DNA of 41,358 bases from an uncultured Clostridia bacterium (GTDB lineage: Bacteria > Bacillota > Clostridia > Lachnospirales > Anaerotignaceae), in the NCBI GenBank assembly GCA_944381455.1, contig CALWLF010000088.1:1-41358 (forward strand), read 5' to 3'. Each line of letters begins with the position of its first letter. The first letter of the stretch is position 1. The translations under genes were made by a program, and so were the position numbers. Below the pieces are notes generated by a model, which was given only the letters and a program-made list of their open reading frames with translations, was not told the origin of the DNA and ran no database searches. This document shows, in pieces, positions 4,894-36,161 of the stretch.

Positions 4894-7800
4894 TTAACAG
4901 CATTCTCTTTCCACTTCAAACGGGTTTGCCTTTGGCTTAATGTGGAATTTCTTTCGTACCGTGTTGGAGATGCGGTCGAAGAACATATAAAGCAAAGGCA
5001 CCACAACCAGTGTTAGGAATGTACTTGTTGCAAGGCCGCCGGCAATAACCAGGCCCATGCCGCGCAACATTTCGCTGTTGGAACCGTTGGAAAAAATCAT
5101 GGGGAACTGCCCCAAGATGGTGGTTAAGGCTGTCATCAAAATAGGCCGTAATCTGGTGGGACAGGCGGCCAAAACAGCTTCTGTCAGCTCATAACCGTCT
5201 CTTTCTCGTAATAAATTGATATAATCAATCAGCACAATACCGTTGTTTACAACAATGCCAACCAAAATCAAACAGCCGATCAAAGCCATCATACTGATGT
5301 GCTCTCCTGTGAGAAAGAGCAGGAAAATGGCGCCGGTAAAGGCCAACGGAATGGTAAACATAATGATAAATGGGTTAATCAAGGATTCAAACTGTGCAGC
5401 CATCACCATATAAACCAGCACAACGGCCAGCAGAATCACCAGGCCCAAAGAGGAAAAGGTATCGTTCATGGTTTCGTTGCTGCCGCCCAGCTTTGCAGTA
5501 TAGCCTTGCGGCATGGACATCTGATCCAGCATGGCCTGCACATCGTTTCCGACGCTGCCGCTGTCTCTGCCGTATACTTCACAAGAAACGGTGACATATC
5601 TCGTTTGGTCTTCGCGGTTGATGGAAGAAGGCACATCTTCCATGGAAATATCGGCAATGGCCGAAAGAGGAATGATGGAGCCGTCGCCGGTGGTAATGGA
5701 CATATCTTCCACATTGACAAGCGAAGAGGTTTTTTCTTCCGGCAAAACAACGATGATATCCATCTCTGTACCATCCGTTTTTAATGTGGTGGCCGTATAG
5801 CCGGAAACAGTGTTTTTCACTTGGTTTGCAACATCGGAACCGGTCAAACCATACTGACGGATTTTATCTTTATCCACAGTCAAGGCAATTTGTGTATCTT
5901 GATTGTCCAAGGAAGACGTGATTTGTCTGGTGCCTTCGATTTGTTCCATCTGGAAGGCAATCTGTTCGCTGATTTCTCTCATTTTGTCCAAGTCATCGCC
6001 GGTGATTTCCACTTCTACCCCGCCGCTGAACATGGAGGACATGCTGGAAGAAGACGAAACGGATATTTCTGCCCCTGCCACAGATTGGAGCATGGTTCTC
6101 ACCTCTTCCACAATTTCATCTGTGCTTCGGTTTCGTTCGGTTTTATCCACCAGTTCGCAGGTGATGCTGCTTTCTTCACTGGAGCCCATCATGGAACCGG
6201 AAGAACCGGAAAGGGAAACGGACATGGAAACCAGTTCCGGTATCTCCTCCAAAACTTCTTCCGCTTGCAGCGATAACGCATTGACTACTTCCAGCTGACT
6301 GCCTTTTGGCGCTTTGACAGTGACAGTAAACTCCCCTTCGTCGGAGGATGGCATCAGTTCCATGCCGATGGAAGGCACTAAACTTAAGGAAACAACAAAG
6401 AGGGCCATCACCACAAGCAGCGTCCGTTTTTTATGCCAAACGGCCCATTTTAAAAACCGGCCATAAATGGCATCCAGCTTTTTGATGAACCGGTCGAACA
6501 AGTCCAGCAGTTTATTGATAAAATCCAACTGTTTGGGGGCTCGGTTTCGATGAATGTTATTGACATAGTTGCCGGCAAACATGGGAACTACTGTCATCGA
6601 TGTGACCAAAGACATGGTTAAAGAGAAGATGATGGCAAAAGCCAAGTCTTTCATCATTTCAATCATCATGCCTGTCACAAACACGAAAGGAACGAATACC
6701 ACAATGGTAGTTAAGGTGGAGGCTACGATGGAAGCACGCACTTCTTTGCCGGCCAGGTAGGTCCCTTTGATTTTGCCATAACCTAAAGTGGTTCTGTAAC
6801 GATAAATGTTTTCCAGTACAACAACGGAGTTATCAACCAGCATCCCCACCCCAACAGATAGACCGCCCAAGGAGATCATGTTCAATGTGGTGCCGGAAAA
6901 ATACAGCAATACGAAGGTACCGATGATGGAGATGGGCATGGATACGGCAATGATGCCGGTTAAACCCACGTTTTTTAAGAATACAAACAGCACTAAGATG
7001 GATAAAAAGGCACCGGTATAGATGTTTGATAATACATTATTGATGGAATTTTCAATGCCGCTGGCCGATTCCATGGTGACATCGATGGTGATTTCCGGAT
7101 AATCTTTGGAGATGGCTTCTATTTCTTGTTCCACATCATCCACCACCGAAACAGTGTTGCCATCGCTGGACTTTGTGACGGAAATGGAGATACATTGCTC
7201 CCCATTATAACGACTGATGGACTGTGTTTCCTTGTCGCACTCTGTGATGGTGGCAATATCTTCTAACTTCAGCACCGTTCCTTCTGCAATTTGGATGGGT
7301 GTTTTTTTGATGTCTTCGATGCTTTCCATTTGCAGTTTCGTACTGATGGTCAAAGTTTTTTCGCCATAGTCGATACTGCCGCCAGATTGATTGCTGTTTT
7401 CAGCAGAAAGAATTTGACCGATGGAGCTCATGGTCAACCCATAGCCTTCCAATAATTCTGGATCAATTTCAATGCGGATTTCTTTTTGGGCGCCGCCCAT
7501 TACATCCACGGAAGCAACGCCGCTTTGACGTTCCAGCCGAGGTTCGATGTTGTCTTCCACAAATGTTTTCAATTCATATTCGTCCATGCTGTCAGAAGCC
7601 ACAACGGCCGTCAAAACGGGCATGGAGTTGGAATCCATTTTCATGATGGTGGGCGAGTCACAGTCGTCGGGCAGCATGGCCTCCACCATGCTCAATTTAT
7701 CCCGCAAGTTGGTGACTGCCGTATCCAGGTTTGTGCCATAGGTAAATTCAACCATCACCATAGAGCTGCCTTCGGAAGAGGTGGAGGAAATGGATTCCAC

Positions 7801-8028
7801 ATCTTCCACGTTGGCAATGGCACTTTCAATTTTCTCCGTTACCAGACTTTCCACTTCTTCCGGCCCGGCGTCTGCATAGCTGGTCATGACCATGACCATG
7901 GGCATATCCACATCTGGCGTTAAAGTCATTTCCATTCTTGTCAATGACACAATCCCTAAAATCACAACAATTAACATCACCATGATGATGGCAACAGGAC
8001 GTTTGATGGAAATTTTTGTAAAATCCAT
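4894..8028 (-). CDS. RND efflux transporter (HAE/SwrC-like)
   Basis: A 1044-residue inner-membrane pump, full length for the family. It starts with MDFTKISIKRPVAIIMVMLI, the usual N-terminal helix. It has the two large extracytoplasmic loops and the proton-relay helix reading GVGMLVDNSVVVLENIYRY; a single Asp followed by Asn is typical of Gram-positive members such as SwrC. The second half repeats the fold (VGIVVNNGIVLIDYINLLRE). The ATG at 8028 is preferred over an in-frame GTG at 8043, because that GTG overlaps the only ribosome-site candidate (GAAAGG, 8048-8043). The adaptor gene lies 33 bases upstream. Expected substrates are amphiphilic toxins or surfactants; specificity cannot be read. 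Confidence 0.93.
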   Translation of the reverse strand: MDFTKISIKRPVAIIMVMLIVVILGIVSLTRMEMTLTPDVDMPMVMVMTSYADAGPEEVESLVTEKIESAIANVEDVESISSTSSEGSSMVMVEFTYGTNLDTAVTNLRDKLSMVEAMLPDDCDSPTIMKMDSNSMPVLTAVVASDSMDEYELKTFVEDNIEPRLERQSGVASVDVMGGAQKEIRIEIDPELLEGYGLTMSSIGQILSAENSNQSGGSIDYGEKTLTISTKLQMESIEDIKKTPIQIAEGTVLKLEDIATITECDKETQSISRYNGEQCISISVTKSSDGNTVSVVDDVEQEIEAISKDYPEITIDVTMESASGIENSINNVLSNIYTGAFLSILVLFVFLKNVGLTGIIAVSMPISIIGTFVLLYFSGTTLNMISLGGLSVGVGMLVDNSVVVLENIYRYRTTLGYGKIKGTYLAGKEVRASIVASTLTTIVVFVPFVFVTGMMIEMMKDLAFAIIFSLTMSLVTSMTVVPMFAGNYVNNIHRNRAPKQLDFINKLLDLFDRFIKKLDAIYGRFLKWAVWHKKRTLLVVMALFVVSLSLVPSIGMELMPSSDEGEFTVTVKAPKGSQLEVVNALSLQAEEVLEEIPELVSMSVSLSGSSGSMMGSSEESSITCELVDKTERNRSTDEIVEEVRTMLQSVAGAEISVSSSSSMSSMFSGGVEVEITGDDLDKMREISEQIAFQMEQIEGTRQITSSLDNQDTQIALTVDKDKIRQYGLTGSDVANQVKNTVSGYTATTLKTDGTEMDIIVVLPEEKTSSLVNVEDMSITTGDGSIIPLSAIADISMEDVPSSINREDQTRYVTVSCEVYGRDSGSVGNDVQAMLDQMSMPQGYTAKLGGSNETMNDTFSSLGLVILLAVVLVYMVMAAQFESLINPFIIMFTIPLAFTGAIFLLFLTGEHISMMALIGCLILVGIVVNNGIVLIDYINLLRERDGYELTEAVLAACPTRLRPILMTALTTILGQFPMIFSNGSNSEMLRGMGLVIAGGLATSTFLTLVVVPLLYMFFDRISNTVRKKFHIKPKANPFEVERECC

Positions 8029-8061
8029 AGAGCGATCACACACCTTTCTGTCAAGACTTCC

Positions 8062-9351
8062 TTACGTTTCTGAAATGCTGACGGTGCTGCCGTCGTTGAG
8101 GAAATCCTGACCAGTGGTGACAACCAGATCGCCCATATTGAGCCCGCTGGTGATTTCAATGGATTCATCATTTTTGATGCCAGTTTCCACGATGGTTTTA
8201 TGTGCAATGTTGTTTTCGTCCACAACAAATACATATTTTTCACCGCCCGATTCAATGACCGTATTTAAGGGCACAGAAATGGTGTTTTCTTTTTGTTCCA
8301 GCACCAGACGGATGGAAGCAAACATTCCGGGTTTGATTTGGTGGTCTTCGTTGGGGAGATAGGCTTCTACCGTATAGAGCTTGGTTTAACTGTCGGCAGA
8401 GGGCGAAATGTTGGAAACTACGGTTTCAAAAGGTTCGTCGGAAATGGCCGAAAGCGTCACATAGACGGCAGAACCGGTGGAAATCCGGTTGATCACATCT
8501 TCTGAAACGCTGAAGGAAACTTTGATCTGGTCCAAACTGGTGATGGTCATTGCTTCTGTTTGGGTGGAGACAGTGGAGCCTTTGGAAATGTTCAAGCTGC
8601 CGATGGTTCCGTCAATTTCAGCCCGGACTTTTGTGTTATCCAAATTTTGCTGGGCGCTTGCCAAAGAAACTTGCGCCTGTGTGACAGAGGCTTCCGACTG
8701 GTTGACGGTGGCTTGAGAGGACTTTTTGGTTTCCTCAGCAATTTGGTTTTTCTGCAATTCCAGCTCGTTTTTGGTGGTATCCAGCTGCAATTTGGCTTTG
8801 TCTACGCTGGATTGCATATCTTCCAGGGCCTGCTTGGAGATGCTGCCTACTTCATAAAGCTGTTTGTATTGCTCTAAGGTTTTCTGCAAATCATCGTATT
8901 GGATTTGGTAGGTTTCCACAGAAGATTCCAGTTGCTGGATTTGCACTTCCATGCTGCCTCCGATGTTTGCTTCATAATTGGCCTGGGCAGATGCTAAGCC
9001 GGCTTCTGCCGAGTTTAAGGAGGCCTGTGCCTGCTGCACTTCTAAGCGTGCGTCGGTGTCATCAATTTCAAATAAAACATCGCCGGCTTTCACCTCATCT
9101 CCTATGGCGACATAGACTTCTTTGACCGTGCCGCTTGTTTTGGGAACGACAGAAACTTCATTTTCCGATGACACTTTGGAAGATAAGGTGACGTACTGTT
9201 CGATGGTCAATGGCTCCACAGTGCTGACATGGACGGCGATGGCAGTCACCGCTTCGCTTGCGGCAGGCGCCATGGCCGGCTTTGCGCCACAAGCCGAACA
9301 AGAAAGCGAAATGGCAGTCAGAATACTTATTGCAATCAGCTTCTTTTTCAT
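8062..9351 (-). pseudogene. RND periplasmic adaptor (HlyD/MFP family), interrupted by in-frame TAA
   Basis: The reading frame encodes a complete membrane-fusion adaptor of 429 residues apart from one stop codon. The first part (8386-9351, 321 residues) has a lipoprotein-type signal ending LSCSACG (likely lipid Cys21), a biotinyl/lipoyl-like half (VYVAIGDEVKAGDVLFEIDD), a coiled-coil hairpin and the return strand. TAA at 8388-8386 follows SPSADS. The same frame then continues TKLYTVEAYLPNEDHQIKPG and FASIRLVLEQKENTISVP to a normal end at 8062, so nothing is missing. AAA to TAA is the simplest explanation. An AAGGAG ribosome site precedes the start. Either the pump has lost a full-length adaptor, the stop is read through, or there is a base error. 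Confidence 0.85.
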
Positions 9352-11347: not shown

Positions 11348-11363
11348 AAGACAGCGCTTTTTT
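11319..11363. terminator. Bidirectional intrinsic terminator
   Basis: A perfect 13-bp stem, AAAAAAGCGCTGT (11319-11331) with ACAGCGCTTTTTT (11351-11363), has a 19-base loop and T-tracts on both strands. It serves the histidine kinase and the convergent modification operon, and its arms overlap the last codons of both genes. Confidence 0.9.
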
Positions 11364-11904
11364 ATTTTTTGCTTGATTTGAGAAGATTCCAAAGGGTATG
11401 TAAATTTGAAGCATCGCCCATAAAAAAGCAATCGGGCAGATAACGACTTTTCGTCGGGTCAAGGCAAGTTTCATCATGAAACAAACGGTCTTTGATTTGT
11501 TCGTCCGTCTCAAAAAGAAGCTGCGGCCCCTGTTGATCTGAAAGGAAGTAGAGATAAAAAATGGGACGGTCCAGCCGGGAAAAGGCGCTGGTAACCTGCT
11601 TAATCAAAGGCTGCAAAGGCCAGGATAAATCAGGTTTTTCCCAAGGACTTCCCTGCCAAAACCGGAAAACCACATAGGCCAAAATGCCCCGGTCTCCCCC
11701 CAAAAAAAGATAGCCGGGATCGCTGGGGGTGCTGCTTTCCCAAGGACAAAGGTTCATTTTCCAGTGTTTTTTGACATAGAGTATAAACGCATCGATCAAA
11801 GTCTGTTCGTCCCAGGAACAAGTTTCGTTTTCCGTCTCCAAAAGGGAGGGCTGATACGGGTTTTCTTTCCCTAAACAGCGGGCAATCCATTCTTCTGCCT
11901 GCAT
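11362..11904 (-). CDS. Degenerate paralogue of the adjacent PD-(D/E)XK nuclease, putative restriction subunit
   Basis: A 180-residue protein translated from ATG 11904 with AAAGGAGG inside the end of the preceding gene. It aligns by eye with the nuclease encoded just upstream. RPIFYLYFL and LLFETDEQIKDRL match APVFYVHWL and IFFETSQQVKAYL, and the catalytic strand ILAYVVFRFWQGSPW matches VAAYFELKFHGAPF. In this copy the catalytic Glu and Lys positions are Val79 and Arg81, so it is probably not an active nuclease. It may be the second subunit of a heterodimer or a DNA-recognition partner. No database family is assigned; homology to the neighbour is my reading. Confidence 0.65.
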   Translation of the reverse strand: MQAEEWIARCLGKENPYQPSLLETENETCSWDEQTLIDAFILYVKKHWKMNLCPWESSTPSDPGYLFLGGDRGILAYVVFRFWQGSPWEKPDLSWPLQPLIKQVTSAFSRLDRPIFYLYFLSDQQGPQLLFETDEQIKDRLFHDETCLDPTKSRYLPDCFFMGDASNLHTLWNLLKSSKK

Positions 11905-11907
11905 CCG

Positions 11908-12696
11908 TTATGCCTCCTTTGATTGGATGCACTGCTTTAATGTTTCCAGAAACGATTCAAAACTGCCCATGGATAACAGCGGCGAATACATTTTCTTTAA
12001 ATAAACAGCCTGTTTGGATTTTTGCAGGTCCCCTTCCCGCTTGGCCCGGGAAAAGACGGCATGCTGTGAAGCCAGATATGCTTTGACTTGCTGGCTGGTT
12101 TCAAAGAAAATGCCTTTCAAACAGGGATATTCCAGCCAATGGACATAAAAAACGGGTGCATCCATCCCCTCTTCCATCAGCTGCAGCTGTTTTTCGATCT
12201 TTTTGTGATCCAGCGTGGCGCTTCCTTCATAGCAATACCGTCCTGTCAAAGAAAGGGCTGAAATGAAAGGAGCACCGTGGAATTTTAATTCAAAATAGGC
12301 AGCCACAGAACCATCATCCCGCAGCACCTTGCAGTCTGGATAGCTTCTGTTTTCTAAGTCGGCCCGCACAACTGCTGTGCCAAGTTTTTCTTCTAAAAAA
12401 TGCATCAATGCCTCTTCATGCTGTTTTCCCAAAATGACATCATATTTTGGAATGCTTTTATTGCGGGCAGGTAAATAGAAAGCGGCGCATTGTTTGCAGG
12501 TTTCGGCCAGGGATGGAATTTGCTCTTTCAGTGCTTTGACACTGTAAAGATGGTCATAGCTGTTGTTCTGGTACATCTATTGATAGCATTGGGCATGAAA
12601 AGGTGTGTAAGTAAACTGCGTTTCAAACAAAGGCACGTTTTGGAAAAACGCAGCAAAGCGTGCTTGGCAGGAGTCCAGTAATTCTTCGTATAACAT
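11908..12696 (-). pseudogene. PD-(D/E)XK restriction-type endonuclease, interrupted by in-frame TAG
   Basis: The frame opens at ATG 12696, six bases after GGAGGG, and runs 39 codons (MLYEELLDSCQARFAAFFQN onwards) to TAG at 12579-12577. It continues in the same frame for 222 more codons to 11908. The second part carries the nuclease signature: YPD (P80, D81 of that part), then AYFELKF (E96, K98), a PD-x14-ExK spacing. The context, directly behind two DNA methyltransferases, supports a restriction enzyme. CAG to TAG (Gln) is the simplest cause. ATG follows the TAG immediately, so the 222-residue core could be made by reinitiation. Specificity is unknown. Confidence 0.75.
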
Positions 12697-12707: not shown

Positions 12708-13499
12708 TTATTTTTCTTCGGTTTCCTCTTTCAGCGCTTCTTTGGGCTTTGCTTCTTCTCTAAGACGCTGCTGAATTTCATGGCGATACTGCTCATCCAG
12801 CTCAAATCCAATGGCATTTCTGTCCAAAAGCTTTGCAGCCAGCAACGTTGTCCCGCTGCCGGCAAAAGGATCTAAAACAGTGTCTCCCACATCACTGGAC
12901 ATTTTGATGATACGGCTGATCATGGGCAGAGGATAGATGGTGGGATGGGACAGGTTCAGTTTCTTTTTGGTCATGTTGTTTACCCGGTCAAAATACCAGA
13001 CGTCAGTGGGATTTCTTCCTTGTTTGCCCACCAGGCGCTTATCGTTTTTGGTCAGGAAAGGAACGCGGACTTCATCAAGATGAAAAACATAATTATTGAT
13101 GTCTTTGACGCCCCACAGGATGTTTTCATACCGGCCGGAGAGGCGGTTGACACAATTTTGCATGTTGTTGAAAGTCCAGGTGATCATGTTGCGCAGGTAA
13201 AACTGATTTTGTTTCATAATTTGATAGCCCAAAAAAGGCAGCGGCAAAATTTCTTTCCCTTCCCCAAAAGGCACAGGGGAAAGGTTTAAAAAAAAGCTGC
13301 CGTTGGGCGTTAAAATCCGGTACACCTGCTGGGTGACTTCGTCGATCAATGCTTCCCATTCGTTGAGGGGGATTTTATCTTTATATTTTCCATAGGGTTT
13401 TCCGATGTTATAAGGCGGCGATGTGATCACCAGCTGGACCGATGCGTCAGGCACATCCTTTAACAGCTGGCGGCAGTCGCCAATTTTAAATTCAATCAT
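12708..13499 (-). CDS. Beta-class DNA amino-methyltransferase, second of pair
   Basis: A 263-residue site-specific DNA methyltransferase. The start MIEFKIGDCRQLLKDVPDAS at 13499 is chosen because GGAGGTG precedes it; the frame extends 12 codons further upstream without a better signal. Motif IV (TSPPYN, residues 27-31) comes before motif I (LDPFAGSGTTLLAAK, near the C-terminus), which defines the beta class. The TSPPY form is common in N4-cytosine enzymes but does not exclude N6-adenine. It overlaps the first methyltransferase gene by 8 bases. Together they would modify the two strands of an asymmetric site. Confidence 0.93.
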   Translation of the reverse strand: MIEFKIGDCRQLLKDVPDASVQLVITSPPYNIGKPYGKYKDKIPLNEWEALIDEVTQQVYRILTPNGSFFLNLSPVPFGEGKEILPLPFLGYQIMKQNQFYLRNMITWTFNNMQNCVNRLSGRYENILWGVKDINNYVFHLDEVRVPFLTKNDKRLVGKQGRNPTDVWYFDRVNNMTKKKLNLSHPTIYPLPMISRIIKMSSDVGDTVLDPFAGSGTTLLAAKLLDRNAIGFELDEQYRHEIQQRLREEAKPKEALKEETEEK

Positions 13500-14277
13500 G
13501 GGGCACCTCCACTCGATCCAGCCGGCTTTGGGCAATGAGACAATATTCCTTCACCGTTTCATACCCCACATAATGCCGGCCCAGTTTTTTTGCCACAACG
13601 GCCGTTGTGCCGCTGCCCATGAACGGATCCAGCACCACCTGCCCTTTTGATGTGCCGGCCAGCAGGATTCGCTCCACCAGTTCTTCTGGATATTGGGCTG
13701 GATGGGAAGTGCGTTCTTCAAAATTGCCGGAAACCATGGAGATGCGCCAAACGTCAGTGGGGTTTTTCATCTGGCTCTTATACCGGTCCGGCCGGTAGTT
13801 GAGGGCTGGAATTTTCACATCATCCAGATGAAAAGTATAGTGATGTTTGTCTTTGACAAACCAAAACACAAATTCGTAACGAGGGGCAAACCGTTTATTG
13901 GTGGAGCCGCCCCAGTCAAAATTCCAGATGATAAGATTTTTTAAGTAACAATCGGAAAAAAAGTCTTGAATCCAAAAGGGAGGCACCACCACACCGTTTT
14001 CGTAACGGTTTTTGATGTTTACCCAAATGGAGCCGTTGTCTTTGAGCACCCGCTTGCATTCGGAAAAAACGGCAGAAAGCATTTGACGATAGGCATCTTC
14101 TTCGAGACAATCGTTATATTTGATGCCTTTGCTTTCAGTGATTTTTCCGTGTTTTGTTTTGTTTCCATAGGAAATATCAATATTATAAGGCGGCGATGTC
14201 ACCACCAGGTCAATGGAGCCTGAGGCAAGTTCCGCCATTTGTTCGCTGGAATGGTTATAAATGACATCAAAGTTCAT
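13492..14277 (-). CDS. Beta-class DNA amino-methyltransferase, first of pair
   Basis: A 261-residue DNA methyltransferase with motif IV TSPPYNID at residues 28-35 and motif I LDPFMGSGTTAVVAKK near the C-terminus (beta order). The segments between (NPTDVW, TSHPAQYPEELVERIL) are typical of small type II enzymes. It begins 16 bases after the transglycosylase-like gene, with GAGGGAAG as ribosome site. It is only loosely similar to its partner, so each probably recognises a different strand or half of one target. It is the second gene of a five-gene operon with its own promoter at 15708-15736. Confidence 0.93.
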   Translation of the reverse strand: MNFDVIYNHSSEQMAELASGSIDLVVTSPPYNIDISYGNKTKHGKITESKGIKYNDCLEEDAYRQMLSAVFSECKRVLKDNGSIWVNIKNRYENGVVVPPFWIQDFFSDCYLKNLIIWNFDWGGSTNKRFAPRYEFVFWFVKDKHHYTFHLDDVKIPALNYRPDRYKSQMKNPTDVWRISMVSGNFEERTSHPAQYPEELVERILLAGTSKGQVVLDPFMGSGTTAVVAKKLGRHYVGYETVKEYCLIAQSRLDRVEVPHD

Positions 14278-14293: not shown

Positions 14294-15667
14294 TTAAAGT
14301 TGATGATAAATGGTTTGTAATGCCAGATTCAAAGGGCTGGGATAGGCGGCGCAAAAATCGTCCAGACAGGCAAAGCGGCAAAGCGTTTCACAAAGAATGC
14401 GGTGCTGCCAAACGGCGTGCATTCCCATCAGCTGGCGGCTGAAATAGTTGGCTTCATGATTCTGTTCTTTTTGGGCATACAAGTCTTTGATGCGGCGTAT
14501 GCTTTTTGCCTCTTGACAGGCTGGGCAGCCGCAAAGGGGCAATTGGTCGCTGATTTCATTGAGTTTTACATAGATGCAAGGCTCTTGGCGCAAAGAACCG
14601 TCTCGGTTGATGCCACCCACAAAAAACTTGCTAAATCCCACCTCTTTTTGCGGTGTTGGATCGTAGACCAGACGGGTGGACTCCAAACTGCCATCCCCCA
14701 CTCGCCGCACTGGAGAAGCAGAATCAAAGGAGGTGGCCCCGCAAAAATAATTCATGGCAATATTTGCATATCCGCCGCAGCCCAAGGCATGGATGGGGCG
14801 TGTGATGCCTTTTTTGCGCAGTATCATAGCCGCTCTGGCCGGCGTTACTGTTTCCACAAAACCGCGTTTTCCTGTTTTATGGAAGGAAATGTCGCTGTAC
14901 CAGCTTGGATCCACCTGTTTATAGCTGGCAATACCGCCCAGTGCAAAGCCCCAAAATTGATACTGGTATTTTTTTTCTAAGGCAAGAATGTTGTCTACAC
15001 AGGCGGCATATGCTTCCGGTGTTTTGCCATGGACGGGAGAAAGCACATGGGGATAAAAATCCTTTTCTTTGGCCAAAAAACGCACCGTTTCTTCCAAAAG
15101 CATGTCGTTGACTTTTTCAGCATCCAGTGCTTCTAAAAATGACATCAAAGGCAAGTTTTTCTTCTCATTGTCTTTTTCTGTATATTTTCCGCCCAAATCA
15201 AATCCCACCACCAAGTCCACCTTCAGCCGGTGCGCAAAGGTGTAATAGTCGATCATATGCTGGCGGATGGCTGTTTGAAACTGGGTTATATCGTAGTCCA
15301 CTTCGGCCGCCACCTGTTTTACAATATGAAAAGCGCCAGAATCAAGCAGAAATACTTTTTGGGAAAAATCATAGGGAACGGTTTCATAGCCAGCCATACA
15401 CTCCCCTTTTGCGATGAGCGCATGGCGAATTTGGTTATATAACGGCCCCACCTCTATGCCGGAAGCAGCCGGCTGAAAGAGACTGCTTTGAAAGGAATGG
15501 GGATAGCGGTTATTGATATAAAAATAATTGATGAGAGCCGGTGTATTGCCGCTGAACTGGCCGTAAACCAGCTCCCGGTCCTTATCTCCGTTTCCTCCGC
15601 CATAGTTAAATACTTGGAAAAAAGAGGGAACAGGAAGCCGTTTTTGATGTACAGAAAGAAATTGCAT
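14294..15667 (-). CDS. tRNA-guanine transglycosylase/DpdA-like protein in a restriction-modification operon
   Basis: A 457-residue protein starting at ATG 15667, with AAAGGAGG upstream. Three features of the TGT superfamily are visible. LLDSGAF has D109 in the place of the TGT DSGGFQ Asp. SFDSASPVRR has D315 where TGT has its nucleophile in FDxxxPxR. CGCPAC (C379, C381, C384) plus a downstream His (H404 or H417) is a TGT-like zinc site. WGFALGGI matches the glycine loop. Sequence around these motifs is unlike housekeeping TGT, and the gene heads an operon with two DNA methyltransferases and a nuclease. It may therefore exchange guanine in DNA, as DpdA does when it inserts 7-deazaguanines. The family call is firm; DNA as substrate is inference. 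Confidence 0.7.
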   Translation of the reverse strand: MQFLSVHQKRLPVPSFFQVFNYGGGNGDKDRELVYGQFSGNTPALINYFYINNRYPHSFQSSLFQPAASGIEVGPLYNQIRHALIAKGECMAGYETVPYDFSQKVFLLDSGAFHIVKQVAAEVDYDITQFQTAIRQHMIDYYTFAHRLKVDLVVGFDLGGKYTEKDNEKKNLPLMSFLEALDAEKVNDMLLEETVRFLAKEKDFYPHVLSPVHGKTPEAYAACVDNILALEKKYQYQFWGFALGGIASYKQVDPSWYSDISFHKTGKRGFVETVTPARAAMILRKKGITRPIHALGCGGYANIAMNYFCGATSFDSASPVRRVGDGSLESTRLVYDPTPQKEVGFSKFFVGGINRDGSLRQEPCIYVKLNEISDQLPLCGCPACQEAKSIRRIKDLYAQKEQNHEANYFSRQLMGMHAVWQHRILCETLCRFACLDDFCAAYPSPLNLALQTIYHQL

Positions 15668-15764: not shown

Positions 15765-16142
15765 TTATTTTGCTGCAGCAAAGTCGGCGGCCTCTGTGAG
15801 CCATGCCATCAGCTCTTCATCCAGCTGGGTTTCATCATCCAAGAGCAGATGATGTGTCCATCGGTTGGGATAAGGTTCTATGACGGCAGCAATCCGGCTG
15901 GAAGAAAGAGGATGACCCAGTCCAAAAGTCAGTGTCAGAAAGCCGGGAGCATATGAAATTCCTTTTTTGGGACGCAAAAAGGAAACACAGCCAAAAAGCC
16001 GTTTGTGGTAAAAAGAAATCTGACTTTTTTGCACCTTAATTTCCAATGGAGAAATGTTGTTTTTCAGCTTTGTTTCCAAGGCTTCATAAAGAGGCAGTGC
16101 CTGTGGATGAGAATGGAAAAAAAGCAATGTTTGATCGTCCAT
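15765..16142 (-). CDS. DUF5655-like protein
   Basis: A 125-residue soluble protein. The pattern is a short N-terminal helical region, a two-stranded segment with basic residues (VQKSQISFYHKRLFGCVSFL), then VIEPYPNRWTHHLLLDDETQ and a C-terminal helix ELMAWLTEAADFA. This matches what I recall of the DUF5655 domain, found alone or fused in many Firmicutes. An AGGAGG-type ribosome site (AAAAGGAGG) precedes ATG 16142. It has its own promoter (16188-16216) and lies 28 bases before the promoter of the modification operon. There is no evidence that it belongs to that system. Biochemical function is unknown. Confidence 0.7.
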   Translation of the reverse strand: MDDQTLLFFHSHPQALPLYEALETKLKNNISPLEIKVQKSQISFYHKRLFGCVSFLRPKKGISYAPGFLTLTFGLGHPLSSSRIAAVIEPYPNRWTHHLLLDDETQLDEELMAWLTEAADFAAAK

Positions 16143-19373: not shown

Positions 19374-19814
19374 TCATCGTTCTTTTTTGACGATATAAAT
19401 TAGGCCAAGGCCTAAAATACAACCTAAAAAATTTAAAATCATGTCAGAAATGGAGCAATGGCGTCCCGGTACAAATAGTTTTGCCCATTCGCTTGCCACA
19501 GAAGCAAGGATGCCGATGGCAAAGGACAGGGCAAAGATCTTCTTTCGATTCTTCTTTGTGAGAAAAAGCGCCCCGTAAATCAACATGGATAGAACTGTAA
19601 AAACCAGCACATGAGCTGCCAGACGAAACCCGTCAAAAAGAGGCATATAATAGGTTTGGCCCGAAAGGTGAAAAAGCTGCAGCAGGGTTTTGGTGATGGT
19701 GCTGCTTAGTTTTGTGGTGCCGGATAGTTTTTGCAAGGAAAGATAAAAACATAACCAGATCCAAAACAGCAAAAGGCACCACATCATAAAGGGTTTCCAT
19801 CGTTTTTGCTTCAT
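19374..19814 (-). CDS. VanZ-like family membrane protein
   Basis: A 146-residue protein with about four membrane helices and the VanZ signature: an Asp/His-containing first loop (PLFDGFRLAAHVLVFTVLS) and the end motif SEWAKLFVPGRHCSISDMIL followed by N-x-x-G. The start at 19814 is chosen over an in-frame ATG at 19910 because GGGAGGTGGG lies just upstream. VanZ proteins affect sensitivity to some glycopeptides and sit in many envelope loci. It follows the capsule operon by 130 bases and may be its last gene. Confidence 0.88.
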   Translation of the reverse strand: MKQKRWKPFMMWCLLLFWIWLCFYLSLQKLSGTTKLSSTITKTLLQLFHLSGQTYYMPLFDGFRLAAHVLVFTVLSMLIYGALFLTKKNRKKIFALSFAIGILASVASEWAKLFVPGRHCSISDMILNFLGCILGLGLIYIVKKER

Positions 19815-19944
19815 GATCCCACCTCCCAGGTTGTTCAAAATTTTGTGTGCCACAGGCAGGGTATGTTCTGCTGTTAAGATAAAGGCAGAAAACCCATGGT
19901 TTTTTGGCAAAACGGCCGATTGTTACCTATGAGGCTGAAACTGG

Positions 19945-20643
19945 TTAGGGCTGTAACAACTGATTCTGGCGGGCAGTCAGCCGGTCCAGATATTTCTGCC
20001 CAAGCGCGGCGGCAATCATTTTTTGCGCCGCTTCCAGGTTGGGCCGCCGGTCTTTTTGATTATGGCAGTCAGAACCCAAAACATCGATCATGCCATTTTT
20101 TAGCAGCTGCAATGCTTTCTTTCTTGTTTGCCGCTGAACAAAAAAGCTGCCATTTGCTTGGAAAAAAACATGTTGGCTGTGCATCCATTCCAGGCATTTT
20201 TGGTTTGGGGTAAACCAGTACCGCTCCATATGGGCCAGCAAGACGCGGACATCCTGCTGATGGTTTAAAAGCAAAACTTCCTGACACATATGATGTGTCC
20301 AGCGGGTTTGGGGCATTTCAAGCAGCAGCACTTTGGTTCCTTCCATCCTCAGCTTCAAAATTTCTTTTGAATGACTGATGCCGTCATAATACTGCACTTC
20401 GGCACCTAAAACGACGGCAGGCAGATGGGGATGCTGATGCAGGTTTAATTTTTCAAACGCTTGCTGCCGTTGGAGCAAAAAGACTTCAGGTGAAACTTTA
20501 TCTGCATAAAAATGAGGTGTTGCGGCAATGGAAGCAATCCCCTGCCGTTTGCATTCCAAAAGAAGTGCCATGCTTTCTTCCACACTGGCGCTTCCGTCAT
20601 CCAGTGCGGGAAGAATATGGGAATGAAAATCAAACAAATGCAT
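19945..20643 (-). CDS. Capsule tyrosine-protein phosphatase, CpsB/Wzb PHP family
   Basis: A 232-residue manganese-dependent phosphatase with the PHP metal motifs in order: FDFHSHILPALDDGS at the N-terminus, TPHFY, LLAHMERYWF, and GSDCHNQKDRRPNL near the C-terminus. It would dephosphorylate the tyrosine tail of the neighbouring CpsD kinase. ATG 20643 is used; a GTG one codon upstream is possible. The ribosome site is weak, and the CpsD stop codon lies eight bases before the start. It is the last gene of the cps module, which here is at the 3' end of the operon. Confidence 0.93.
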   Translation of the reverse strand: MHLFDFHSHILPALDDGSASVEESMALLLECKRQGIASIAATPHFYADKVSPEVFLLQRQQAFEKLNLHQHPHLPAVVLGAEVQYYDGISHSKEILKLRMEGTKVLLLEMPQTRWTHHMCQEVLLLNHQQDVRVLLAHMERYWFTPNQKCLEWMHSQHVFFQANGSFFVQRQTRKKALQLLKNGMIDVLGSDCHNQKDRRPNLEAAQKMIAAALGQKYLDRLTARQNQLLQP

Positions 20644-20651
20644 CACCTGCT

Positions 20652-21419
20652 TTACTGGTAAGAATCTTGATTGTAATAGCGGTATTGGTAGCCATATTTC
20701 CTGCTTTTTCTTTTTTGTTTTCCTTTGCAGTTTAAAACGAATCCTAGGATTTTGACATTGAGAAATTCCAGCTGCCGAATGGTTTCAGCCAAAGCATGCT
20801 GATCACAATAATCAGGACGAACCACAATCAGCATTCCGCTGAGCAGGTTGGAGATGGTAAGGCCATCGCTGACGACGCTGATGGGCGGTAAGTCGATGAT
20901 GATATAGTCATATTCTTTCGAAGTCTGAGATAATATTTGTTTCATTTTTGCAGAGGACAGCAGTTCTGCAGGGTTAGGCGGAATTTCGCCGGAAGGCAAA
21001 ACACTGAGACAATCTAAAAAAACATGGTGCTGTACCGTCTCTTCCAAAGGGCTTAAACCGGCCAAAACGTTGGATAGCCCGATGGCATGGTCAAACCGCA
21101 GCACTTTTTGAATCAGCGGCAAGCGCATATCGGCTTCGATGAGCAATGTGTGTTTTTTGGCTTCTGCGAACGAGTAAGCAAGATTGATGGCTGTGGTGCT
21201 TTTTCCTTCGCCGCGCAGGGCGCTGGTGATGCCCACAATTTTACATGGTTCTTCATCCGACATACTGAACATCAAATTGGTTCGCAGCAGTTTATATGCT
21301 TCTTGGCTGGCAAAATTTAGTTTCTCACCGATCATTTCCTGCTGATCGTCCAGCGATTTGGGCAGCTCCATCAATTTTTTCCTGCTTTTGATATATTTTT
21401 TTTCGTGGTTACGCATCAT
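20652..21419 (-). CDS. Capsule tyrosine autokinase, CpsD/CapB family
   Basis: A 255-residue cytoplasmic BY-kinase. Walker A reads ALRGEGKSTTA (Arg where most have Pro). The Walker A' region reads LLIEADMRLPL, with Glu where the family usually has the first Asp of DxDxR. Walker B is YIIIDLPPI. The C-terminal tail YGYQYRYYNQDSYQ is the tyrosine cluster that is phosphorylated. The start overlaps the CpsC stop by 4 bases (ATGA) with GGAGGG upstream. It works with CpsC as its membrane activator and CpsB as phosphatase to control polymer length and export. Confidence 0.93.
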   Translation of the reverse strand: MMRNHEKKYIKSRKKLMELPKSLDDQQEMIGEKLNFASQEAYKLLRTNLMFSMSDEEPCKIVGITSALRGEGKSTTAINLAYSFAEAKKHTLLIEADMRLPLIQKVLRFDHAIGLSNVLAGLSPLEETVQHHVFLDCLSVLPSGEIPPNPAELLSSAKMKQILSQTSKEYDYIIIDLPPISVVSDGLTISNLLSGMLIVVRPDYCDQHALAETIRQLEFLNVKILGFVLNCKGKQKRKSRKYGYQYRYYNQDSYQ

Positions 21420-22174
21420 TCACCCTCCTCTGTCTGACCGATGGAACGGCTGGCATCATGATATTTTGGAGCATGGCTGCTTTTCATATGGTCTGGAATG
21501 ACTGCCAAAACGGGAAACGGGTATGTTTCCATCAAATATTCTTCATCATGAATTAACGTATCCATCAAAGTACGAATCACAATGATTGCACTGGCAATCA
21601 TTGCACCGCAAAGAAACCCGCCTGCAAGAAAGGTTAATGTGTTGGGAGAGGAACGCTTCTCTGGGGTAACGGCATAATCCACAACCCGGACAGAGCTGCC
21701 GTCAACCACATCAGAAATTTTCCCCGGCAAAATGGCGGTGATGGCATTGGCAATGCGCTCTGCCTCCTGGGGATCGCTGCTGGTGACACGGATACGGAAG
21801 ATTTCTGTGTTATTGACTGCTTCAGATGAGATCATGTCATATAGTTCTTCATAAGTATAATCCAGGTTTTCTTTCTCGATGACTTCTTCCAAAGTCGCCC
21901 TTGTTTTTAAAATGATGATATAAGTGTCTGCCAGGCTTTGCGCCGCTGTCAATTCAGAAGAGCTGATGGAAAAAGAGGTGTTGCCCAGGGAAGCGGAACT
22001 GTTGTTGACGTACATTAAGGCATCCGATTCATACTGGGGTGTAATGAGATAGGTGCAAGCACCAAAGGCGGCACCTGCAAACAGCAGCCCCAAAAGGAAA
22101 ATGGCCCATGCCCTCTGCCACAAGGCTCTGATCAGCCGCAAAAGATCTAGTTCATAATACTGTACATTTTTCAT
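21416..22174 (-). CDS. Capsule chain-length regulator, CpsC/Wzz family
   Basis: A 252-residue polysaccharide co-polymerase. It has two transmembrane helices (about residues 20-45 and 178-203) around an extracellular domain, and the proline-containing motif TPEKRSSPN before the second helix. The short C-terminal cytoplasmic tail is the expected contact for the CpsD kinase. It lies 24 bases after the FrhB-like gene. Confidence 0.92.
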   Translation of the reverse strand: MKNVQYYELDLLRLIRALWQRAWAIFLLGLLFAGAAFGACTYLITPQYESDALMYVNNSSASLGNTSFSISSSELTAAQSLADTYIIILKTRATLEEVIEKENLDYTYEELYDMISSEAVNNTEIFRIRVTSSDPQEAERIANAITAILPGKISDVVDGSSVRVVDYAVTPEKRSSPNTLTFLAGGFLCGAMIASAIIVIRTLMDTLIHDEEYLMETYPFPVLAVIPDHMKSSHAPKYHDASRSIGQTEEGE

Positions 22175-22198
22175 TGTTTTTGCTCCATTCTAGTTATC

Positions 22199-23416
22199 TC
22201 ATAACTCCCGTTTCGGTTTAGAATCAGAAAAATGATGTTCTTTTTTTTGGGCTTTTTTCACTTTGATTCGTAGTGCCAAAGGAAGTTTTCCATAAAGGTA
22301 TCTCAGTTTCCAAAACATCGAGCTACAGTATTGGTTGGCCCATGCTTCATATCCCATTGTTTGGATGGTTTGATAAATATCTGTACGGCAGGGAGGATAG
22401 TTTGCAGGATGATTCAAGTTTTCATTGATTTGTTTCATCCACTCCAGCTTGCTGGGATAAAGCAGCATGGACTGCTCGATTTCTGGCAGATAGGAGAGAC
22501 TTTTGTTTGTATTCAGCAGTAAAATGGATGCCCCAATATCAGAGTTGATTTCTGGGTGAAACTTTTCCACAGACCAAAAATCAGCAAAAGTAAAATCGCT
22601 GATTCTCTTTTCCTGCGCATAAGTGCATTGATAACAGCAGGGCCGGTAAGTCTTTGCCTGCAGAAAAGACGCATAATAAGGATCCAAAGCGGCAGAACCG
22701 CCGACAGCCTTTTTGGAACGGACGAAATAATAATAATAGTACAGCCCCAGCTGGTAAGAACCAATTTTGTTGCGGAACCGGTAATGGATGATTTTATTTC
22801 CCTTTTTCTTTTCCAGCCACAAAATATTTTGGCGGAATAATTCTGGGCTTGGAACGCCGTGGCAGATGAAATCTGCCGTCAGCAGGTTTTCATATTCCTG
22901 CCCCAGATAAGTCTTTAATCCGGCAATCTGACACGGGGTGCCGGTGTACAGGACCATGCGGCCGTTTTCCAGCTGTTGTTTTACTTTTACAAAGGTATCT
23001 GCAGTATCGCTTTGCACATATTTGGAGCCTCTGCATTTGGAAAGGTCCTCCCGTTTTGACAGGAGAATTTGCTTGGCATAAAAATTTGTATCCAGCATAC
23101 ATCCCACCACAAGGCCGCCTTGTTTTAACACCATTTCGGCAAGGGCTGTAAAAACGCCGCCGCTGGAGCTATCCAAAAGGACTGTTTTGTCTTTGTGGAT
23201 GGCTGCATAGGCTTGGAGCGGCTGATATTGCTGTACCGGTGTTTCCACAGGACAAACAGTGAGGCAAAGACCGCAGTTTCCGCACTTTTCTTCATCTATA
23301 TGGGGATAGAGGAAACCTTCTTCATTTTTTTCCATGGTGATGGCTCCCTTGATGCAGGCATTTTCGCAGGAACGGCAGCCGGTGCAAAGATGAAGTTGAT
23401 CCATCAGGTTTTTCAT
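22199..23416 (-). CDS. FrhB-like iron-sulfur protein of polysaccharide loci
   Basis: A 405-residue protein with two 4Fe-4S ferredoxin motifs (CTGCRSCENACIKGAI and CGNCGLCLTVCP) followed by an F420 hydrogenase/dehydrogenase beta-subunit domain (SSSGGVFTALAEM, TGTPCQIAGLK, ICHGVPSP). Such proteins are frequent beside polysaccharide pyruvyltransferases in Firmicutes and Bacteroidota capsule loci, where their reaction is not established; a flavin-linked redox step on the glycan or its precursor is plausible. The ATG overlaps the pyruvyltransferase stop by four bases, so the two are translationally coupled. Confidence 0.88.
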   Translation of the reverse strand: MKNLMDQLHLCTGCRSCENACIKGAITMEKNEEGFLYPHIDEEKCGNCGLCLTVCPVETPVQQYQPLQAYAAIHKDKTVLLDSSSGGVFTALAEMVLKQGGLVVGCMLDTNFYAKQILLSKREDLSKCRGSKYVQSDTADTFVKVKQQLENGRMVLYTGTPCQIAGLKTYLGQEYENLLTADFICHGVPSPELFRQNILWLEKKKGNKIIHYRFRNKIGSYQLGLYYYYYFVRSKKAVGGSAALDPYYASFLQAKTYRPCCYQCTYAQEKRISDFTFADFWSVEKFHPEINSDIGASILLLNTNKSLSYLPEIEQSMLLYPSKLEWMKQINENLNHPANYPPCRTDIYQTIQTMGYEAWANQYCSSMFWKLRYLYGKLPLALRIKVKKAQKKEHHFSDSKPKREL

Positions 23417-24579
23417 GTTGTCTCACACTCCTCCAGGGCGTTTTTCAAAAATTGTTTGGCGCGGGTTCTTTCTTCCTGCAAAAAGACGTCAATTTCTTCA
23501 AAGGGTATGGGTGTATCCATGGCCTCTGGCTGAAGCTGCTGATGAATAAAACGATTTAAAATGCCAAGACGCTTCATGATGGAAACCATACGCTCAGACT
23601 GGTCGGAAGAATGCATATAGTTTCTGTGGAAGATATACATATTTTTGTGAAACAACAGGGAGAAAGCCAAAGCGTGATAAGAGTCGGAACAAACTTGTGT
23701 TGCGCCATCTAAAAGCCTCAAATAATTCCAAGGGCTTCCCCCTTGAAACACCACATGAGCCTTATCCTTTAAACAGTCATAATTGCTGGCAAAGGCCACA
23801 ATGGTCCATCCCTTTGCAATGCACCAGTCCAGATATTGCAGCACATAAGTGTTTGGCTCATTTAAAAAATAGAAAAACACATATGGACTTGATGGCAGGG
23901 AGAGATTTGTCTTGGCTTCATAAAGCTGACGCCATTGCTGCGCCGTCAGAAGCAGCACTGGATCTATCAGCTGAACGGCATCCCGGTTTGTCAGTTGTTT
24001 GATAATTTGGACTCCTGATTGTTCCCTCACCGATAAAATACGGTAAGCAGCAATATCCCTGGCAAAACGGCGGCAGTTATATGGGGCCACATGGTCCATC
24101 CCAAAGCTGGGCACCCAGGCAATCCGTTTTTCCTTTGGAGCAAATTTCAAAAAATAGGCGTCATTGCGCAAAAACCAGCTTCCATTCCACACTTGGTCGC
24201 TGCCGCAAAGAAAAGCCTGATATTCGTTGCTGTGTGCAGCACGCCGCATTTGCCGGTAATTTAGCTCCACAGAACAAATGTCTTCTTCGATGAAAGTTTG
24301 AATGCCCTGAAAATCGTTTTCCTTTAAAGAAGACAAAGCCGTTTTTCTTTTTGCCTTCATCATGTGCATAAATTCCTTGGCATAAGTTGGATGCAGCACC
24401 ATCTGGATGCTGGCTTTGAGAAAATAGCATAGTTTATTGCATCTGGGATTATAAATATGCTGCCGAAACAAGACACAGGTATACTGCAATTCCAAAACCA
24501 CCTGCTGTGTTGCAAAACATTGCAATGCAGAACCATAATTGAAGTTGTAAAGTGTAACTTGACCTATTTTACGGTCCAT
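23413..24579 (-). CDS. Polysaccharide pyruvyltransferase family protein
   Basis: A protein of about 388 residues. The N-terminus MDRKIGQVTLYNFNYGSALQ, then CGSDQVWNGSW and the late motif CSDSYHALAFSLLF, are those of the CsaB/WcaK-type pyruvyltransferase family, which adds a ketal pyruvate from PEP to a sugar. The start at ATG 24579 fits the family N-terminus; a GTG at 24591 is the alternative. The flippase gene ends 18 bases before this start. It would give an acidic pyruvylated glycan. Confidence 0.87.
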   Translation of the reverse strand: MDRKIGQVTLYNFNYGSALQCFATQQVVLELQYTCVLFRQHIYNPRCNKLCYFLKASIQMVLHPTYAKEFMHMMKAKRKTALSSLKENDFQGIQTFIEEDICSVELNYRQMRRAAHSNEYQAFLCGSDQVWNGSWFLRNDAYFLKFAPKEKRIAWVPSFGMDHVAPYNCRRFARDIAAYRILSVREQSGVQIIKQLTNRDAVQLIDPVLLLTAQQWRQLYEAKTNLSLPSSPYVFFYFLNEPNTYVLQYLDWCIAKGWTIVAFASNYDCLKDKAHVVFQGGSPWNYLRLLDGATQVCSDSYHALAFSLLFHKNMYIFHRNYMHSSDQSERMVSIMKRLGILNRFIHQQLQPEAMDTPIPFEEIDVFLQEERTRAKQFLKNALEECETT

Positions 24580-24597
24580 ACGTTCTTTCACCCGCCC

Positions 24598-25872
24598 CTA
24601 ATCTTTGTAATGGTTTTCCTCTACAATTCTGGCTGTTTTTTTCTGCCATAAAAATCGGTATACAAAATAAAGACGTAACAACAGCAAAATCAGCTCTGTG
24701 ATAATGCGTAACCTGCAAAGGGAAACCAGCGTAAAATGATCGCTAACAGCCAATAGAATCAATCCAAAAATCTGGGCAACTGCTGCAATCAATGTGGTAA
24801 AGGAAGTTTGGCTTTGCTGTCCAAGCGCACCCAGCAGAGGAAAACCCAGCATTTGTGCCACAAAAGAAAATAAAAGCATAGGAATCAGGCATTGCAGCAC
24901 TGTGGCGGCAGCCATATATTCTTCCCCGGCAATGATACGGACTGCTAAGCTGGAAAGCCAGTATAATGCAATACATCCAACAGCAACCACAGGCAAAAGC
25001 CCCACTGTTACCTGCAGCACAAATTTATAATTCTTTTTTTCTGCCACATGGGGATAAATGCTGGTGGTGATGGGATCGTACATGGACTGTACCGCCTGCA
25101 CCACTTGAAAGGCCACACCCCAATAAGCAATTTCCACCACCGGCATCCCCACAATGCCCATCACAAATGTGCTGGTGACAGAGAGGGCTGTGCTGGCAAA
25201 GGTGGATAAAAAATAGATGGACGACTCTTTCAGCGCTGCAATGGCATCATGGATTTTAGAAAAAGAATAATGATAGCCAAGTTTTTTCATCATATGATAG
25301 TTGGTGTAGCAGGCAGCCAACACATTGCCAATCAAATAAGCAACAGGTACAAAAATCAGTTGACTGTCATCTCGGACTGCCAAAAGCACCAAAACAGCCG
25401 TAACAAATTTAGCCAAGATATATCGTTTGGTGATGCCTTCCATGCGTTCCAGCCCCCGGTATAAAAAATCGGGAATGAAAATCTGCGCGGCCATGGCAAA
25501 ATAATAGACAAGCGTTAAAAGAAAATGATCCTGGAGCAAGGGGACACAGAAATATAAAATCAGTAAGAGAAAGAGCCCAACAGGGATCAGCAATAGTTTT
25601 GCCGTATAAACATCGCCGATGGTTTTTTCTATGTAAGATTGATTATTTCTGTTTTGGGAAATCTTTTTTGTGGCGCAAAAATCAAAGCCAAAGTCAAATA
25701 AAAGGATAAAATACCCCATCACCGGTGTCAGATAGGAAATAACGCCGTAACAGTCCGGCCCCAGTTTTCGCGTAAGCCATGCGGTGATGATAAGCGGCAG
25801 AACAAATTTTGCTCCGGTCATAATGTATAAGAAAAACGTATTTTTGATGACGATTTTGTCGTATGACCTCAT
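24598..25872 (-). CDS. Polysaccharide flippase, Wzx-like
   Basis: A 424-residue MATE/MOP-type flippase with about 12-14 membrane helices. The start KNTFFLYIMTGAKFVLPLII with WLTRKLGPDCYGVISY is the usual Wzx N-terminal signature. It moves the undecaprenyl-linked repeat unit across the membrane. The gene lies 18 bases after the Wzy gene and ends with TAG. Confidence 0.92.
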   Translation of the reverse strand: MRSYDKIVIKNTFFLYIMTGAKFVLPLIITAWLTRKLGPDCYGVISYLTPVMGYFILLFDFGFDFCATKKISQNRNNQSYIEKTIGDVYTAKLLLIPVGLFLLLILYFCVPLLQDHFLLTLVYYFAMAAQIFIPDFLYRGLERMEGITKRYILAKFVTAVLVLLAVRDDSQLIFVPVAYLIGNVLAACYTNYHMMKKLGYHYSFSKIHDAIAALKESSIYFLSTFASTALSVTSTFVMGIVGMPVVEIAYWGVAFQVVQAVQSMYDPITTSIYPHVAEKKNYKFVLQVTVGLLPVVAVGCIALYWLSSLAVRIIAGEEYMAAATVLQCLIPMLLFSFVAQMLGFPLLGALGQQSQTSFTTLIAAVAQIFGLILLAVSDHFTLVSLCRLRIITELILLLLRLYFVYRFLWQKKTARIVEENHYKD

Positions 25873-25890
25873 ATAAAAACCTTCTTTTTG

Positions 25891-27129
25891 TCAAATGGAG
25901 AAATGGTGTTTTGATTGACTGCGGCTGGACTTCCCATAAGTTTCCAGTCCAAAAACAATCAGTATGCCAATATAATATGTCATCCAAATGATGCTTGTGG
26001 AATTGGCCACCAGCATCAGTCCGCATAACAAGCCGGCCACCAGACGGGCAATGCCGCTGCAGCGCAGGGCTGTTTTTATCATGGCAAAATAATAGAGAAA
26101 AATGCCTAAGACGCCGGAACAATAAATCAGTTCCATCAACCCTGTAAAATATACATCAGGCAAATGGATGTAACCATATCCAAACAACAGATCCCTTCCC
26201 CCCATGGGTGCAATATAGGCATCCCAATACAATGTTCTGCCCCAAATGGCGTTATAGTTTTTTTGTGAGTATTGTACGGGAGAAAAAATACGATCCAAAG
26301 AGGAGCGGAAAAAGGAAAACTGGTATAGGATGGAAAACGCTGTGATCATTGCCAACAGGAAAACGGCGATTTTCATCATCCGCCCCGAAGCGCTGGATTT
26401 TTGCATCATATCCCAAAGGAATAAAAACCATATACCGCCAGTGAGCATGATGCCCATGCCGGAAGTGGTTGCTACCATCCCTAACGAGATACAGACAGCC
26501 TGTGGATATTGCCGGTTTTTGTGAAAGAGGCAAAGCAGCAATGCCACAAAGGAATACTGTGTCAAATGAGACGGCTCTAAAAAAAATGCAGAGGGACGAT
26601 AGAGGCTGCTCATTTCTTGATAACCTGTCAGAATAAAGCTGCGGTAATATTGGAGGCTGTCCAGGCAGAGATTTGGCGCTATGCAAGGCAGGTGGACGCC
26701 GAAAACATAATGCAATGCGGTCTGTATTATGGTGAGCACTGCTGCCAGCAAAGCAATGGCAATGATGCATTTTTTCAGACAGTCACCATCGACAGCACCA
26801 GTAGAAAAAGCAATGATATGAACAATAATGAGCATGGTTTGGATTAAAGTTACCGTATCGCCTGCACTTTTTATCACAACATAAAACAGATAAATGACAA
26901 AAGGGATGACAAGTTTTGCAATGCGAAGTTTCCAGTTATTTCTTAATATGTCATAAAAGATGACAGATGCAGCATAGAAAAAACTGATAATAATCATGGT
27001 TGTTGAAACGCCAATGCCTGCCAAAGGAACTTGATACATCATAAAAATAGGCAGAACAGAAATGAATATGGCATATCCTTTTCCTCCTTGGCGTTTATTA
27101 TTTTGATCAAATGCAAAATGATTGTTCAC
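25891..27129 (-). CDS. O-antigen/capsule polymerase, Wzy-like
   Basis: A 412-residue polytopic protein with about ten membrane helices and a large loop containing SSLYRPSAFFLEPSHLTQYS, the motif-bearing loop of Wzy-type polymerases (cf. RPxGxFxEP). It starts at GTG 27129 after GGAG. It would join flipped repeat units outside the membrane. Sequence conservation in this family is low, so the call rests on topology, that loop and its position between an acetyltransferase and Wzx. Confidence 0.87.
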   Translation of the reverse strand: MNNHFAFDQNNKRQGGKGYAIFISVLPIFMMYQVPLAGIGVSTTMIIISFFYAASVIFYDILRNNWKLRIAKLVIPFVIYLFYVVIKSAGDTVTLIQTMLIIVHIIAFSTGAVDGDCLKKCIIAIALLAAVLTIIQTALHYVFGVHLPCIAPNLCLDSLQYYRSFILTGYQEMSSLYRPSAFFLEPSHLTQYSFVALLLCLFHKNRQYPQAVCISLGMVATTSGMGIMLTGGIWFLFLWDMMQKSSASGRMMKIAVFLLAMITAFSILYQFSFFRSSLDRIFSPVQYSQKNYNAIWGRTLYWDAYIAPMGGRDLLFGYGYIHLPDVYFTGLMELIYCSGVLGIFLYYFAMIKTALRCSGIARLVAGLLCGLMLVANSTSIIWMTYYIGILIVFGLETYGKSSRSQSKHHFSI

Positions 27130-27159
27130 TTTTCTCCAACCTTTCTAGGCGGCAGCCAT

Positions 27160-28826: not shown

Positions 28827-28847
28827 AGTGCGCACTCCTTTCTTTGT

Positions 28848-30880: not shown

Positions 30881-30996
30881 CGTATCAACTCCTGCCCTTT
30901 GTTGTATTTGCTTGATTCCAATGGGAGTTTTCGATGAAAACTGCATGGTTTCATTCATTGGAACGATTGTCTTCTTTATTCCAAAGAAACAATTTG

Positions 30997-32921: not shown

Positions 32922-32977
32922 CCTCTCCCTTCCGTAAATCTATCTTCTGCCTTAAGCAGTGTGTCTCCCAAGCTTTT

Positions 32978-34868: not shown

Positions 34869-34894
34869 TGGTTCCACCCTCTTTCCTTGCAAAC

Positions 34895-36010: not shown

Positions 36011-36101
36011 TGTGAACCCTCCTGCTTCCATGTGTCTTTTTTTAATCCTTTCTTCAGAAAACAAGAAAATCTCTCAATGAAAAATGAGGGATATCCATAA
36101 A

Positions 36102-36161
36102 GGTTTTTCCAGTTTTAATCTTGGGTTTTCCAATTTGACTGAATTTATTTCCAGTATTTAT
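36102..36161. repeat. Three direct repeats at exact 21-bp spacing in the capsule leader
   Basis: On the plus strand CCAGTTTTA (36109-36117), CCAATTTGA (36130-36138) and CCAGTATTT (36151-36159), each preceded by a T-run, start exactly 21 bases apart (two helical turns). The nine-base unit plus 12-base gap recalls LytTR-type sites, but no LytTR gene is in the window. Confidence 0.5.

Follow-up and report, generated by a model that had tools for sequence, protein, structure and literature searches.

A PD-(D/E)xK nuclease and its nuclease-dead paralogue in a putative restriction-modification-like module with two DNA methyltransferases and a TGT-like protein

The window, by which the whole analysed stretch of 41,358 nucleotides is meant (contig CALWLF010000088.1, assembly GCA_944381455.1, from an uncultured Clostridia bacterium of the gut), carries five genes on the minus strand in the order TGT-like, MT1, MT2, nuc and deg. 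The first of them (14294..15667, minus strand) codes for a TGT-like protein of 457 aa counted from ATG 15667, which is preceded by a Shine-Dalgarno sequence, with the ORF remaining open up to 15781. The next two genes code for DNA methyltransferases assigned to the beta class by the PF01555 domain present in both, namely MT1 (13492..14277, minus strand; E 2.6e-59), which contains the TSPPYNI motif and has DNA methyltransferases as its closest solved structures, and MT2 (12708..13535, minus strand; E 4.5e-53), which is a paralogue of MT1 with 33-36% identity and matches the RsrI methylase with an E-value of 3.5e-27. The start listed for MT2 is a TTG codon; translation is likely to begin instead at ATG 13499, where the gene overlaps with the last part of MT1. 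Plasmid and phage relatives provided no recognition sequence for the methyltransferases, all of them being less than 60% identical, with the best at about 37% among the matches listed. The nuclease gene nuc occupies a full-length frame at 11908..12696 and is followed by deg (11362..11904, both on the minus strand), a nuclease-dead paralogue of nuc with an intact ORF of 180 aa and a Shine-Dalgarno sequence of its own.

The TGT-like gene has as its immediate upstream neighbour a gene for a DUF5655 protein (15765-16142), which was not seen beside the relatives and was not counted as a module member. Farther along, at 19374-37514, the minus strand harbors a capsule-type cluster including genes for CpsB/CapC, an NAD-sugar epimerase, a NeuB/DAHP synthase-like protein, an ATP-grasp protein and the F420 hydrogenase beta subunit.

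The full-length nuc frame begins with ATG 12696 behind a good Shine-Dalgarno sequence (AAGGAGG), and the nuc start of the relatives, located about 40 codons upstream of the open part in the window, corresponds to the same codon. The original prediction had set the end of the gene pair at 12696, which is indeed the true full-length start, and had overlooked the TAG interrupting the frame at codon 40 (12577..12579, minus strand). The open part left behind this codon (11908-12576, minus strand) comprises 222 aa with all the catalytic residues inside and has ATG 12576, not preceded by a Shine-Dalgarno sequence, directly after the TAG as a restart candidate, so the nuclease of the window is either interrupted or restarted. 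As the frame holds a nonsense codon, this genome has probably lost some or all of its restriction function, unless ATG 12576 allows translation to resume. A second interrupted copy was found in locus L002, where a TAA is present at codon 225 of 260 and the TGT-like gene contains a frameshift; MT1, MT2 and deg of this locus match along their length. Both stops could be assembly errors. Recoding of TAG was considered for the stop in the window and rejected, since the stop in L002 is a TAA at another codon, which makes shared recoding unlikely.

The model of the nuclease, built with AlphaFold2 from the intact L003 protein together with seven relatives, has a pLDDT of 85.6. Foldseek matched it weakly, with low global TM values, to SPARDA nucleases, Hjc/RecU resolvases and type II restriction enzymes. 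According to VIA-align, the nearest structures are the D212 nuclease and the ST1444 resolvase (Z 9.6), followed by other Hjc resolvases (Z 8-9), the SPARDA nuclease and the restriction enzyme 3ndh (both Z 8.1), several restriction enzymes with Z 6-8, and EcoRV with Z of about 6. In the numbering of L003, which is used for the whole nuc/deg alignment, the residues E94, P120-D121 and E136-x-K138 are invariant in nine nucleases and in the L002 protein. The structural matches taken with the invariant motif assign nuc to the PD-(D/E)xK nucleases, in agreement with the original prediction. Although Hjc-type resolvases and SPARDA nuclease domains are its nearest solved structures, their gene context differs, and the likeness is that of the common core only. 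No family was found for nuc or deg in Pfam, NCBIfam or PADLOC, and no match to nuc in a sequence search of the PDB; weak PHROG and Pfam matches were dismissed as chance.

The two adjacent proteins are homologous, as had been proposed from the shared patterns PVFYV/PIFYL, FFETxxQVK/LFETxxQIK and AYFELKF/AYVVFRF, all of which are found in the translations of the two ORFs. BLASTP of the window pair alone gives a short match (29% over 42 aa, E 5e-4), and nuc used as a query in a relative genome also hits deg there (E 4e-7); when a profile of nine nucleases is compared by hhalign with a profile of five deg proteins, 162 columns align with a probability of 99.5 and an E-value of 2.6e-23. The predicted catalytic decay of one copy is likewise seen across the family: in deg, D121 is replaced by G, K, R, N and Q in the five copies and K138 by R, N, R, R and F, and E136 is replaced in four of them (V, V, R, S, with E kept in the fifth). 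Lacking intact PD-(D/E)xK residues, deg is a homologue of nuc and not a catalytic member of the family. The blocks CYEGSATLD, YPCLKG and REGD are gone from deg, and the blocks DKGILAY, LDRPVFY and FETxEQIKD are retained.

The nuclease is rare: the order sample of 392 genomes has two that carry it and the phylum sample of 398 has one, and each of these numbers includes the genome of the window. Ten nuc-bearing genomes were compared, consisting of eight loci from a species-genome collection, one relative genome and the window. Orthologues of MT1 and MT2 are found in every one of them, and each nuc locus contains a TGT-like gene, divergent in one case (L009). An initial impression that L003 was devoid of MT2 proved wrong, as the contig also holds a 75% identical copy at a distance of about 5 kb. 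Within the order sample, exactly the two genomes that hold nuc have an MT2 orthologue, and among the sampled relatives the TGT-like family is confined to the same two genomes, apart from one weak match (G106) which sits in a histidine kinase gene and was rejected as chance. This shared occurrence indicates that nuc, MT1, MT2 and the TGT-like gene form a unit, and the variation of gene order and strand between loci argues for selection on its content. The restriction-modification setting with two methyltransferases, part of the original prediction, is upheld. No relatives of nuc or of the TGT-like protein were found in phages, plasmids or viral contigs. Loci L005 and L006 carry a near-identical module in a Lachnospiraceae MAG and a MAG labelled Alphaproteobacteria, which suggests either recent transfer or mis-binning. 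The surroundings of the module in L004 look like a defence island, with two neighbouring genes at 6927-8902 whose translations, judged by eye, resemble a radical-SAM protein and a three-Cys-motif partner.

The TGT-like protein of the window has a marginal TGT match (E 0.005). The AlphaFold2 model of its L003 relative (pLDDT 81.9) has archaeosine and bacterial TGT as the best Foldseek matches (E 4e-9), and the VIA comparison with 1iq8, in which 322 residues align with Z 27.1 and an rmsd of 3.5, identifies it as a TGT barrel fold; for archaeosine and queuine TGT the Z value is about 27 over 320 residues. A canonical Tgt is encoded elsewhere in the genome of the window, which makes the protein a second, divergent member of the family and means that the usual tRNA role is already taken. 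The hhalign comparison of the two is weak overall (E 6e-4, probability 28), with the aligned motifs GGIA/GGLA, LGCGG/MGVG, FDAASPVR/FDCVLPAR and CGCPAC/CQCPVC; the DSG pocket and the zinc histidine (CxCxxC...H) are also conserved. In the TGT-like proteins the catalytic Asp is intact, and the zinc motifs are present in nine of the ten genomes. In L009, the usual protein is replaced by one of 385 aa (1764-2918) which keeps DSG, LGCGG and an Asp, has no zinc motif and gave no match in Pfam, so that its apparent kinship with TGT would be read from aligned motifs alone. The genome of the window encodes Tgt and QueA; searches for QueC and QueT in it returned partial QueC matches, with no full QueC and no QueT, and a 7-deazaguanine would therefore need to be salvaged by another route. 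The protein is regarded here as a putative guanine transglycosylase or glycosylase component.

Five loci bear deg (the window, L002, L003, L004 and L010), and in all five it is located directly downstream of nuc and is open, at 28-44% identity with 29 invariant positions. In the other five whole genomes deg is absent, the deg profile matching only nuc itself. The nucleases accompanied by deg form one clade (100/100), as do the deg proteins (100/99), and the branching orders of the two trees are compatible, which fits one origin and joint inheritance. The constant position, the intact frames and the single clade with a tree compatible with that of nuc mean that deg is a retained, clade-specific partner of nuc, and long-term co-inheritance of the two is supported. 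In the AU test, nesting of deg with the clade of its partner nucleases is disfavoured (p-AU 0.013, with long branches). At three positions (G130, S176 and R180) the residue of the deg-less nucleases persists in deg and the partner nuclease has changed; such a pattern would be left by a division of roles, but the columns are few and the overlap is not above chance. The deg protein is probably a non-cutting subunit. As its frame is open in the two of the five deg-bearing loci where nuc is interrupted (the window and L002), deg might also act without nuc.

It is suggested that the TGT-like protein, MT1, MT2, nuc and deg make up one restriction-modification-like defence module, and we give even chances to this proposal with the following roles. 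MT1 and MT2 would mark both strands of a recognition sequence, and nuc would cut DNA devoid of the marks. The TGT-like protein, with DNA as its supposed substrate, would exchange guanine, or remove it, at this site or close to it, and the outcome would most likely be an extra self-mark of the Dpd kind. The deg protein would go back to a nuclease of this family which lost catalysis and would have been kept in one clade as a structural or DNA-binding partner in physical contact with nuc, so that a homodimer would have given way to an active/inactive nuc-deg pair. The fuller picture, with two methyl groups and guanine exchange by TGT as the marks of self (or with excision of guanine from non-self DNA), with nuc as the reader and with an obligate heterodimer of an active and a dead subunit in one lineage, is less likely than not.

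The role of deg can be explained in several other ways. The original prediction likened the pair to type IIT enzymes, that is, to a heterodimer which would cut one strand per complex and hence nick, or which would owe to deg a site asymmetry requiring two methyltransferases, and the adjacent paralogues, the two methyltransferases and the dead subunit all agree with such a reading. Nevertheless, the five deg-less loci carry the same two methyltransferases, so deg cannot be what explains them, and any asymmetry would be independent of it. Moreover, type IIT enzymes have by definition one catalytic site per subunit (PMC12707154 and PMC6326814, the latter for BbvCI), and an inactive subunit such as deg, deprived of the catalytic residues, does not fall under this definition; we consider the type IIT reading quite unlikely. 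A related suggestion is that deg regulates or inhibits nuc by forming inactive mixed dimers which restrain toxicity during establishment, like a dominant-negative immunity protein. The loss of D121 and K138 in all copies and of E136 in four of five, the position directly downstream of nuc and the intact state of deg at the two loci with a broken nuc would be expected of such an inhibitor, but half of the systems manage without deg, the two methyltransferases already protect the host, and the residues G130, S176 and R180 kept by deg fit a structural part better than pure inhibition, which leaves this explanation unlikely. It is very unlikely that deg is simply a functionless duplicate in decay, as would be suggested by the lost active site and by branch lengths indicating faster evolution than that of nuc, given that it is open in every copy at such divergence, with its invariant positions preserved, that it has its own ribosome-binding site in the window and that its genealogy agrees with that of nuc.

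The remaining alternative concerns the TGT-like protein, which might belong to the restriction arm instead of the self-marking one, excising guanine from unmethylated sites, much as restriction glycosylases of the R.PabI kind do with adenine, and leaving a lesion at which nuc would cut. TGT chemistry itself breaks the guanine N-glycosidic bond, by way of a covalent intermediate, and the module appears to have no genes for 7-deazaguanine synthesis. Moreover, in L002 the genes for the TGT-like protein (frameshift) and nuc (nonsense codon) are the ones that are broken, with MT1, MT2 and deg matching throughout. This loss pattern is nevertheless known from one locus only, in a metagenome assembly, and the known DNA-acting relatives of TGT (DpdA) insert bases; a place of the TGT-like protein in the restriction arm is unlikely. 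In the preferred reading it would add a guanine-based mark or lesion, with deg as a non-cutting partner of nuc.

In the literature searched, with limited coverage of papers on Dpd, no account was found of a TGT-family protein that shares a system with a small nuclease and a pair of methyltransferases, so a type of restriction-modification module coupling double methylation with TGT-family chemistry is apparently undescribed, and a TGT-family enzyme in a small restriction system appears to be new as well. If the proposal is true, the module is a small restriction system in which methylation is combined with the base chemistry of the TGT family, hitherto connected with large Dpd islands, the camouflage of phages and loci related to BREX. 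The loci with and without deg offer a natural series for testing a transition from a homodimeric restriction nuclease to an active/inactive pair.

Two methyltransferase genes are typical of the loci of type IIT and two-subunit type IIS enzymes. The module resembles type IIT (BbvCI, Bpu10I) and two-subunit type IIS (BtsI, BspD6I) systems in having two subunit genes along with two methyltransferase genes, but one subunit here is catalytically dead and missing in half of the relatives, and a gene of the TGT family belongs to the module. With the restriction glycosylases of the R.PabI family (PMC10273834) the possible shared trait is base excision within restriction; these enzymes are not of the TGT family, the guanine exchange of TGT works by covalent catalysis, and excision by the TGT-like protein is hypothetical. 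Homologues of TGT are known from Dpd islands and phage DNA modification (PMC6884629) and from BREX-related capture systems (PMC12839542). The latter, BRC with TGT/GNAT, likewise have a TGT-family protein in a defence locus, where it is proposed to be a DNA self-marker, but also PglZ, a BrxC-like ATPase, a STAND NTPase and a HerA translocase, none of which is among the module genes. In the Dpd system (DpdA-K, 7-deazaguanine in DNA) a TGT-family protein is likewise tied to DNA restriction. No close match was obtained in the hhalign comparison of the TGT-like protein with DpdA of phage 9g, the only DpdA compared (41 columns, E 0.017), and Pfam revealed no DpdB, DpdC or preQ0-synthesis genes among the neighbours in the window, the other loci being judged by their ORF lists. 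In place of the Dpd set, the module described here contains two PF01555 methyltransferases and a small PD-(D/E)xK nuclease.
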